Part shown: piece after piece, positions 592 through 4,576 of the stretch
Layout of the letters: each line of letters opens with the position of its first letter
Numbering within the stretch: the stretch's first letter is position 1
Source: Candidatus Competibacteraceae bacterium
GTDB lineage: Bacteria > Pseudomonadota > Gammaproteobacteria > Competibacterales > Competibacteraceae
DNA: 6,923 nucleotides
Assembly (NCBI GenBank): GCA_012032855.1
Contig: JAAUQA010000167.1
Coordinates: 1-6,923 of the forward strand
Direction of reading: 5' to 3'
Translations under genes and position numbers: made by a program
The notes under the pieces: generated by a model
Told to the model about the DNA's origin: nothing
What the model saw: only the letters and a program-made list of their open reading frames with translations
The model's database searches: none

Positions 592-922
592 GTGGATTAT
601 ACAGTTGGTCAACCATTGTTCATCCTGCCCATGGTGCTGGTGAAATTGTCGATATTGACATCAGGAGTTGGTGGCAGGCTTCAAACGCTATTATGTCATC
701 CACTTTGCTGAGAAACAATTGACGCTGCGAGTGCCTTTTCGGCGTACGGAAAATGCCGGTCTCCGCCAAATCATGTCTAGCAGCAAGCTGAAACAAGTCA
801 TGGCAACCTTACGCGCATTGCCCGAACAGTTGCCCAAAGATTTCAAGGCTCGACGCAAGAAATTAGAGACGCTCGTCTTCTCCGGTATGCCGATCAAGAT
901 TGCCGAAGCCGTGCGCGAGTTG
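592..922 (+). pseudogene. CarD/CdnL-family RNA polymerase-binding regulator, N-terminal RID domain plus start of the helical domain; two frameshifts, C-terminus replaced by RpoC
   Basis: CarD-family proteins bind the beta subunit of RNA polymerase through an N-terminal RID (Tudor-like) domain and stabilise the promoter open complex with a C-terminal helical domain. Read in three frames, the protein starts VDYTVGQ (592-612), continues IVHPAHGAGEIVDI (615-656), then HQELVAGFKRYYVIHF (from 659). It goes on through LTLRVP, GLRQIMSSSKLKQVMATLR and ALPEQLPKDFKARRKK to [14 protein letters not shown]. This is the full RID pattern (V.HP.HGaG.I, YYVI.F, L.VP, GLR..ms) and the first CarD helices. One base appears lost at 613-615 (proline codon) and one at 657-659 (glutamate codon); restoring them gives one clean frame. 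After AEAVREL (902-922) the usual 'TWR...' CarD end is missing, and the same frame continues as RpoC. The deletions look more like sequencing error than decay because the rest is well conserved. Related sequences include the TRCF RID domain, but the length and the absence of helicase motifs favour CarD. Confidence 0.85.
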
Positions 923-1870
923 TTGCATTCTTTGGATTTGAAGAAAGAAGCCGCCAAGCTGCGCGAAGAAATTGCCGACTGCACGTCCGGAAACCAAACT
1001 GAAGCGGCTATCCAAACGGCTTAAATTAATCGAGTCGTTCATTGACTCCGGCAACCGGCCGGAATGGATGGTATTGACGGTGTTGCCGGTATTACCGCCC
1101 GATCTGCGACCGCTAGTACCTCTGGACGGCGGGCGGTTCGCTACCTCCGATCTAAACGATCTGTACCGGCGGGTGATCAATCGCAACAATCGCTTGAAGC
1201 GGTTATTGGAGTTGAATGCGCCCGACATCATCGTGCGTAACGAGAAGCGCATGTTGCAAGAAGCGGTGGATTCGCTATTGGATAATGGTCGCCGGGGACG
1301 CGCGATCACCGGTAGCAACAAACGTCCGCTGAAATCCTTGGCCGATATGATCAAGGGTAAACAGGGTCGTTTCCGGCAGAACCTATTAGGGAAACGGGTG
1401 GATTATTCTGGCCGTTCGGTCATCGTGGTCGGGCCTACCCTGCGCCTGCATCAATGCGGGTTGCCCAAGAAAATGGCGCTGGAGCTGTTCAAGCCGTTTA
1501 TCTTCAGCAAACTGATCCGGCGCGGTATCGCGACTACCATCAAGGCTGCCAAAAAGATGGTCGAACGCGAGCATCCGGAAGTTTGGGACGTGTTGGAAGA
1601 GGTCATTCGCGAACATCCGGTGTTGCTCAATCGCGCCCCGACCCTGCATCGCTTGGGGATTCAGGCATTCGAGCCGGTGTTGATCGAGGGCAAGGCGATT
1701 CAGTTGCATCCGCTGGTTTGCACGGCGTTCAATGCCGACTTCGACGGTGACCAGATGGCGGTGCATGTGCCGTTATCCATTGAAGCGCAAATGGAAGCGC
1801 GCGCCCTGATGATGTCGACCAACAATGTTTTGTCTCCGGCCAACGGCGATCCTATCATCGTGCCTTCCAA
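902..1870 (+). pseudogene. rpoC: RNA polymerase beta' subunit (RpoC), residues ~176 to ~500 (E. coli numbering); N-terminus missing, two frameshifts
   Basis: This is the first part of a broken rpoC. It begins within [20 protein letters not shown] (902-961), which matches E. coli RpoC near residue 176, and has no RpoC start codon. The first ~175 residues are absent, including the N-terminal zinc site (four cysteines, around residues 70-88 in E. coli). The frame changes by +1 between 971 and 980, where REEIA is followed by [17 protein letters not shown] in another frame. From there to 1868 it is clean: [92 protein letters not shown]. The catalytic motif NADFDGDQM is at 1731-1757, with its three Mg-binding aspartates intact. 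At 1866-1870 one C appears lost (TCCAAG for TCCCAAG): PSQDVV becomes PSKMWC and this frame would stop at 1898. The identity is certain; whether the break exists in the organism is not. Confidence 0.95.
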
Positions 1871-4576
1871 GATGTGGTGTTGGGTCTCTATTACATGACC
1901 CGCGACCGGATCAACGCCAAAGGCGAAGGCATGGTGTTCAGTGATGTCGCCGAGGTCCATCGCGCCTACGAAAATCGGGAAGTGGAACTGCATGCACGGA
2001 TCCAGGTCCGCTTGCCAAAAATCGAGGTCGATGAACAGGGGCAGCGTACCGAAACCCTGCAGCGTGTCGAAACCACGGTAGGCAGGACACTGTTGTCGGA
2101 TATTTTGCCGGAGGGCCTGCCGTTCAGCCTGATCAATCAGGTGTTGAACAAAAAAACCATCTCGCGGCTGATCAATGCCTGTTACCGGCAAGTGGGTTTG
2201 AAAGAATCGGTGATTTTCGCCGATCAGTTGATGTATACCGGCTTTTATTACGCGACCCGTTCCGGGGCGTCCATCGGTTTCGAGGATTTGGTCATCCCTG
2301 AGGAGAAGGTTACGATTCTCGGTAGGGCCGAAGCCGAGGTCAAAGCGATTGAGAACCAATACGCTTCGGGATTAGTGACCATGGGCGAACGCTATAACAA
2401 AGTCGTCGACATTTGGTCACGCACCAATGACCAAGTGGCCAAAGCGATGATGGACAGACTGGGTAGTGAACTCATTGAGAACCGCGAAGGCGAGAAGGTC
2501 AAACAACCGTCTTTCAACGCAGTGTTTATGATGGCCGACTCTGGAGCCCGTGGTTCTGCAGCCCAGATTCGACAGCTCGCCGGTATGCGTGGTTTGATGG
2601 CCAAACCGGACGGTTCCATCATCGAAACGCCGATTACCGCTAACTTCCGTGAGGGACTGGATGTCCTGCAATACTTCATCTCTACCCACGGTGCTCGCAA
2701 AGGTTTGGCAGATACGGCATTGAAAACTGCTAACTCCGGTTATCTAACCCGCCGTTTGGTGGATGTGGCCCAGGACTTGGTGGTGACTGAGCGCGATTGT
2801 GGGACCCGCGAAGGTCTGCTGATGACGCCTATTGTCGAAGGCGGGGAAGTGGTCGAGCCGTTACGTGATCGCGTATTGGGGCGGGTGCTCGCGGAAGATA
2901 TTTTTCGTCCCGGCAGTGAAGACGTGGCGTTGCCACTCGGCACCTTGCTGGATGAGCAATGCGTCGATCTCTTGGAAGAAATGAGCGTCGATCAATTACA
3001 GGTGCGTTCCGTTATCACTTGCGATACCCGTTACGGGGTATGCGCCACCTGTTATGGTCGTGATCTGGCCCGTGGCCACTCGGTGAATACCGGCGAAGCA
3101 GTGGGCGTTATTGCGGCTCAATCCATCGGTGAGCCGGGCACGCAGCTGACCATGCGGACTTTCCATATCGGCGGCGCGGCGTCTCGGGTTGCCGTAGTCA
3201 GTAATGTGCAAGTCAAGTCTAAAGGCTTGATTCGTGTGCAGAATATGAAAACTGTGCGCAATAAGGAAGGACATCTGGTCGCGGTATCGCGCTCGGGAGA
3301 AATTACTGTTATTGACGAGTTCGGACGGGAACGGGAACGCTACAAAATTCCCTATGGTGCTGTTGTCACCCAAAGCGACGGCGATCCGGTAGAACCCGGC
3401 CAAGTGGTTGCGCATTGGGATCCGCTGACTCATCCGGTGATTACCGAAGTAGCCGGACGGATACATTTCTTTGAGTTCGAGGAAGGCGGTACGGTGCAAC
3501 GTCAGACTGACGACATTACCGGTGTCAGCAGCCTAGTGGTCATGGATCCGAAGCAACGCAGTTCCCAAGGCAAAGATAAACGGCCGATGGTGAAATTGGT
3601 CGACGAGAAGGAAAACGACCTGTGTATCGCCGGTACGGAAATTCCCGCGCACTACTATTTGCCGGCAGGCGCCATCGTCAGCCTGGAAGACGGCTCTGAA
3701 GTGGCCGTCGGCGACGTGCTTGCCCGAATTCCTCAGGAGTCCGGTAAAACCCGTGATATTACCGGTGGTTTACCGCGAGTCGCCGATTTGTTCGAGGCGC
3801 GCAAGCCCAAGGAGCAGGCTATTTTGGCCGAGATCTCGGGAACAGTCAGTTTCGGTAAGGACACCAAGGGTAAGCAACGTTTGGTGATCACCGACAAGAG
3901 CGGCACTAATCACGAGGAGCTCATTCCGAAATGGCGTCAGGTGAGTGTCTTTGAAGGTGAGAATGTCGAGCGAGGCGAGGTAATCGTCGAAGGCGAACCC
4001 AATCCTCACGATATCTTACGTTTGCTCAAGGTCAGGGAATTGGCTTCTTATCTGGTGAAAGAGATTCAGGACGTCTACCGCTTACAAGGCGTGCGGATCA
4101 ACGATAAGCATATTGAAGTCATCATTCGTCAGATGATGCGCAAAGTGGAGATTCTTGATCCCAAAAGCACCCGTTTCATCAAGGGTGAGCAAGTGGAACG
4201 GACCCGGCTGTACGAGGAGAATGATCGGGTCTTGGCGGAAGGAGGCGAGATCGCTACCTATCAACCGCTGTTGCTCGGCATCACCAAGGCATCGTTGGCG
4301 ACCGAATCGTTCATCTCCGCTGCGTCCTTCCAGGAAACCACTCGGGTATTGACGGAAGCTGCCGTGCGGGGATTGCGCGATGACTTGCGAGGCTTGAAGG
4401 AAAATGTCATTGTCGGTCGCTTGATTCCCGGCGGGACCGGCTTGGCCTACCACGCGGAACGCCATAATGCAGCGGCGACGCTGTCAAAACGAATCACCCA
4501 GCATATGTTCGAGGGCGATGCTTCCAGCGAGGATAGCACTCCGATTGAAGAGAACGCGGATCAAACCGATCAGTGA
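1869..4576 (+). CDS. rpoC: RNA polymerase beta' subunit (RpoC), residues ~500 to C-terminus, uninterrupted
   Basis: This continues the same rpoC after the frameshift at 1866-1870 and is open to TGA 4574-4576, about 900 residues. RpoC forms one jaw of the RNA polymerase clamp and much of the active centre. It has the conserved order expected. [20 protein letters not shown] is followed by the secondary-channel region ([36 protein letters not shown]). The bridge helix [20 protein letters not shown] lies at about 2636-2745. The second zinc site has cysteine codons at 2798, 3020, 3041 and 3050 ([17 protein letters not shown]). The trigger loop lies at about 3092-3180 ([20 protein letters not shown]), interrupted by the proteobacterial SI3 insertion at about 3190-3750. 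The C-terminal clamp follows ([65 protein letters not shown]), then an acidic tail. With the upstream part it spans about 1224 residues, fitting E. coli's 1407 minus ~175. It has no start signal of its own. The first in-frame start-like codon is GTG 1874, which is not a plausible initiation site. Confidence 0.97.

Follow-up and report, generated by a model that had tools for sequence, protein, structure and literature searches.

Contigs that join DNA from two species occur in metagenome assembly. The two protein families that meet in the locus described here are unrelated to each other and conserved: CarD/CdnL regulators, which carry an RID domain (PF02559) and a C-terminal domain (CarD_C, PF21095), and RpoC, the beta' subunit of RNA polymerase (TIGR02386). 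An initial annotation had read the first of these families running in frame into the second, and had ranked an assembly chimera above a recent recombination and both of these above a real fusion. We compared the window, that is, the whole stretch of DNA that was analysed (6,923 nucleotides), with relatives of its genes. Judging from its content, the window almost certainly unites, as an artefact, DNA that came from two organisms in a mixed sample, and the apparent CarD-RpoC fusion is very probably an ordinary stitching error, not a new protein. The origin from two species is an addition to the earlier reading, which did not see it.

Layout of the window and reading frame across carD and rpoC

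The features are collected in Table 1. As described initially, the N-terminal part of RpoC and an upstream rpoB are both absent from the window, and frameshifts flank the joint on both sides.

Table 1. Features of the window (coordinates in nucleotides; frameshifts placed by eye)
Feature	Position	Strand	Remarks
Gfo/Idh/MocA oxidoreductase, C-terminal part	2..418	+	PF02894, E 1.2e-10; gene cut by contig edge; Caldilineaceae-like
Intergenic stretch between oxidoreductase and carD	419-591		173 bp; GC 0.39, AT-rich
carD, 5' part (RID domain and start of C-terminal domain)	592..901	+	Two frameshifts, near 610 and 662; Caldilineaceae-like
Joint word GCCGAAGCCGTGCGCGAGTTG (AEAVREL)	902..922	+	Fits both genes; CarD and RpoC residue support cross here
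rpoC without its N-terminal codons	923..4576	+	TIGR02386 and Rpb1 domains; frameshifts near 989 and 1873; Competibacteraceae-like
HAD-family hydrolase	4749..5401	-	Two overlapping frames, one frameshift; PF12710 in both pieces
CDP-alcohol phosphatidyltransferase	5398..6039	-	PF01066, E 1.5e-16
SppA-type S49 peptidase	6075..6923	-	PF01343 over cut-off; gene cut by contig edge; Competibacteraceae-like

The proposal of an in-frame CarD-RpoC chimera holds in one respect, in that the two halves are in phase across 902-922, but not as a continuous coding sequence over 592-4576, which four frameshifts interrupt. The sole listed open reading frame with both halves is 668-1024 (118 aa), which is CarD up to AEAVREL and RpoC-like beyond it. 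RpoC is carried on in other frames (972-1898 and 1874-4576), and the earlier CarD pieces from 592 also sit in other frames, as seen in the list of open reading frames and by eye against the CarD protein P0002. A single open frame leading from the RID domain through RpoC was not found, the 118-aa frame being all that joins the two. The frameshifts, placed against relatives, sit in or beside short single-base runs; they would match the error type of homopolymer-prone sequencing, and the breaks could be sequencing errors. Because they lie on both sides, and because a further one interrupts the HAD gene, where one frame passes into the other at about 5080-5170, they are not special to the joint.

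The 118-aa frame gave no Pfam match at E 0.001. At E 0.1 it matched CarD_C (17.8 bits) and RID (13.4 bits), both below their cut-offs (23.1 and 23.0, respectively), and NCBIfam recognised RpoC in its residues 78-115 (E 0.00084). As for the right-hand genes, PF12710 matched one piece of the HAD gene over its cut-off (E 1.3e-8) and the other under it (E 0.00026), the C-terminal piece also matched TIGR01490 under the NCBIfam cut-off, and SppA matched TIGR00706 slightly below its cut-off (E 6.9e-43).

Within the AT-rich intergenic stretch, just 5' of the carD start, a 12-base direct repeat, CAGAATATCGGA, is present three times at 526-562 and is a possible regulatory site. At 467-495 there is a sigma-70-like site (10 of 12 matches), although the total of such sites is no greater than in shuffled sequences. 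Scans of 380-4800 found three promoter-like sites (2.5 in shuffles) and three terminator-like sites (5.0 in shuffles).

The joint word and the affinities of its two sides

The agreement of each residue with 12 CarD and 17 RpoC sequences was profiled without gaps. AEAVREL was already suspected of fitting both families, and it does so, with a per-residue agreement of 0.67-1.0 for CarD and 0.35-1.0 for RpoC. The 38 residues before 902 have a mean agreement of 0.74 with CarD and 0.08 with RpoC, and the 20 residues after 922 one of 0.09 and 0.55, respectively. Homology and taxonomic affinity both switch abruptly at this single point, as an assembly chimera should show. The bases before the word are ATT, which is CarD-codon-like, while the corresponding codon in rpoC relatives is one for glycine (GGN), and the base after the word suits the leucine of RpoC, not the threonine of CarD. 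Because these flanking codons differ, at most base 901 could also be common to both genes, and the shared word would be at most 21-22 bp long. The 21-bp word was found with at most four mismatches in 17 of 138 loci (106 of the 138 contain the C-terminal part of rpoC), the best occurrence in rpoC relatives having two mismatches (L052 and L071). GC content does not tell the sides apart, third-position GC (GC3) being 0.60-0.62 to the left of the joint and 0.58-0.70 to its right.

On the left, a protein search with the 118-aa frame returned 12 proteins at E <= 0.001 among 31 candidates. All 12 carry precomputed PF21095 and PF02559, and the three proteins P0002, P0010, and P0011 scored over the cut-offs of both the RID and the CarD_C models. 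The best match is P0002, with 88% identity across 72% of the query; for the nearest five (P0002-P0006), identity is 72-88% and coverage 71-72%. Eleven of the matches cover 66-72% of the query and end at the joint; P0010 covers 95% at 52% identity, yet is an ordinary CarD. After AVREL, every one of the 12 reads TW (TWR in 11, TWH in one), and the full CarD proteins have 167-176 aa. Only two of the 12 bear an organism name, P0010 and P0011, both from Caldilineaceae. The neighbouring oxidoreductase fragment gave 92 matches among 804 candidates (best 76%), of which eight carry the name of an organism or sample: six Caldilineaceae/Chloroflexota, including the Caldilineaceae genus Litorilinea at 42%, one soil metagenome, and one planctomycete (41%). 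The left side is Caldilineaceae-like as judged by these more distant named matches of CarD (P0010 and P0011) and by the agreement of its two neighbouring genes. Among viral contigs searched for CarD, six stretches fitted a pattern and none was a relative; the 27 plasmid records found were all below 60% identity.

On the right, at least 80 rpoC loci, one genome per species, were found by six peptide patterns, and the best of them was 75% identical to a 900-aa RpoC piece of the window. The comparison was taken further in the 39 genomes of the family that includes G012, to which locus L051, titled Competibacteraceae bacterium UBA2788, belongs; of these, 37 matched the 900-aa piece, the best being G034 (80%) and G013 (79%). 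For SppA, apart from P0014, which is 100% identical and is the window's own protein, P0015, named Candidatus Competibacteraceae, is 90% identical over 100% of the query among the 120 of 8000 matches listed. Judged by rpoC and sppA, its two informative genes, the right side is Competibacteraceae-like, and its named relatives belong to a different phylum from those of the left side. An S49 match was found in 38 of the 39 group genomes, 34 of them at 57-65% identity and the others weak. In the genomes nearest by RpoC, SppA is 61% (G034) and 26% (G013) identical, and the best of the 39 reaches 65%, far below P0015. None of the 39 is close enough to be the source, to judge from these identities. 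Since the nearest genomes differ between RpoC and SppA, the origin of the right side from one organism is only likely.

The CDP-alcohol phosphatidyltransferase near sppA found only weak partial matches of 24-39% in 36 of the 39 group genomes, despite the 90% identity of SppA to P0015, and the HAD gene had no match in the rpoC loci searched. One locus (L014), on a contig titled Phycisphaerales bacterium isolate GAO1, has an rpoC of gammaproteobacterial type, 69% identical to that of the window; its genome, G010, was placed in the family of G012, and the record title looks wrong.

An rpoC in its normal context encodes a full-length beta' with its N-terminal domain and follows rpoB, which is not the case here. 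Locus L133, from G034, has rpoB, an rpoC of 1407 aa, rpsL, rpsG, and fusA in this order (names assigned by reading translations). In the window, rpoC is followed by an inverted repeat at 4576-4620 (GGCCCTCACCCTC...GAGGGTGAGGGCC; seen by eye, not terminator-like in the scan) and then by genes on the opposite strand, without rpsL. We considered a possible second artificial joint 3' of rpoC, which the absence of the HAD, CDP-alcohol phosphatidyltransferase, and SppA genes behind rpoC in the fetched loci would favour, although many of these loci hold only ~1.5 kb there. Among 106 loci with the C-terminal part of rpoC, rpsL was found in 77, five were too short, and 24 lacked rpsL with at least 900 bases available. 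Because the Competibacteraceae group contributes 17 of the 24 entries (15 genomes), an rpoC without rpsL is not suspicious in itself, and the count suggests that the rpoC-rpsL order is broken in part of this lineage.

Origin of the join

In the best-supported account of the window, positions ~1-901 come from a Caldilineaceae-like member of the Chloroflexota, with the oxidoreductase gene followed by carD, and positions ~923-6923 from a Competibacteraceae-like gammaproteobacterium, with rpoC, the HAD hydrolase, the CDP-alcohol phosphatidyltransferase, and sppA. Both carD and rpoC encode AEAVREL, so the ~21 bp at 902-922 could be common to the two, and a false overlap probably arose there. The in-phase reading would follow because the common word is divided into codons alike in carD and rpoC. 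The two taxonomic affinities, the switch point, the missing rpoB and rpoC start, and the broken frame are observed. We infer that the sample held a mixed community, that the same word was present in both parent genes, and that the joint was made by the assembler and not by a chimeric molecule in the library.

The last of these points has a competitor within the artefact reading itself. Ligation, or a template switch during PCR or amplification, may have produced a physical chimera before sequencing, and a switch between two phyla at a short word suiting both genes would fit such an event equally well. A lone chimeric molecule, however, will rarely determine a contig's consensus sequence except at very low coverage, and we regard this route as unlikely, though well short of negligible.

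An account by real recombination or horizontal transfer would place a Gfo/Idh gene and the start of carD from the Chloroflexota before a truncated, non-functional extra copy of rpoC in a gammaproteobacterium. A short common word at 902-922 could also mediate illegitimate recombination, but a transfer between phyla and a second copy of rpoC are both required. The CarD_C model found nothing in the 39 Competibacteraceae-group genomes (two of which have only 1.2-1.3 million bases, some being incomplete by size), compared with 5 of 14 in a control set. Full-length CarD (P0002) likewise found no match in 12 genomes from those behind the at least 80 rpoC loci, a search made without a positive control. 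Given the absence of CarD_C from the group genomes, a carD beside rpoC would be foreign in that lineage. Moreover, normal RpoC residues precede the site in 24 of the 25 rpoC loci compared, the remaining one ending at a contig end, and no transposase or integrase was matched in the eight pieces scanned against Pfam and NCBIfam. None of the 12 protein matches of the 118-aa frame is a chimera, although that search admitted only proteins 0.55-1.75 times as long as the query, and a fusion as long as RpoC would have escaped it. We therefore consider this history very improbable. Slightly more improbable still is one particular form of it, in which transfer between phyla and recombination at microhomology would have left a Competibacteraceae-like host with a real junction, where a CarD RID domain is transcribed and lies in frame with an incomplete second copy of rpoC.

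A functional fusion that tethers CarD to RNA polymerase has in its favour that the frame at 668-1024 runs across the joint in phase. It would have to work with a CarD whose C-terminal domain is cut early and an RpoC whose N-terminal part is absent, and over a region with four frameshifts by eye, though these are possibly sequencing errors. The two halves would also be expected in one organism. Instead, the named matches are Caldilineaceae/Chloroflexota on the left (two of two for CarD, six of eight for the oxidoreductase) and Competibacteraceae on the right. The chance that such a protein exists here is, in our judgement, vanishingly small. The order of explanations given at the outset, with the assembly chimera first, is borne out by the affinities to two phyla, by the lack of CarD_C matches in all 39 genomes, and by the switch at a short word that suits both genes, as well as by the way in which the Gfo/Idh neighbour sorts with CarD and SppA with RpoC.

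Comparison with known systems

Up to 922, the open reading frame is like members of the CarD/CdnL family, to which its nearest five matches belong. It differs from them in that the C-terminal domain ends at AEAVREL, where all 12 relatives read TW and run on to their full length. The part from 923 to 4576 is like RpoC, spanning the protein from AEAVREL to the C-terminus, but the N-terminal region of the relatives is missing and no rpoB lies upstream. Among the papers searched, none brings together CarD, rpoC, fusion, and RID domain. A covalent tether between CarD and beta' would be remarkable if true; the evidence is strongly against it, and an in-frame fusion on a metagenomic contig is, by itself, no evidence of a fusion protein.

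The window is most like an inter-species chimeric contig. At a word compatible with both, DNA of one taxonomic affinity gives way to DNA of another; each side carries a truncated gene, and the Gfo/Idh gene on the left and the SppA gene on the right each agree with their own side. It is unlike such a contig in that the joint keeps the reading frame, which it does because both genes encode AEAVREL there. When two conserved genes that are unrelated encode a short run of identical residues, a chimeric contig with an in-frame joint can result.
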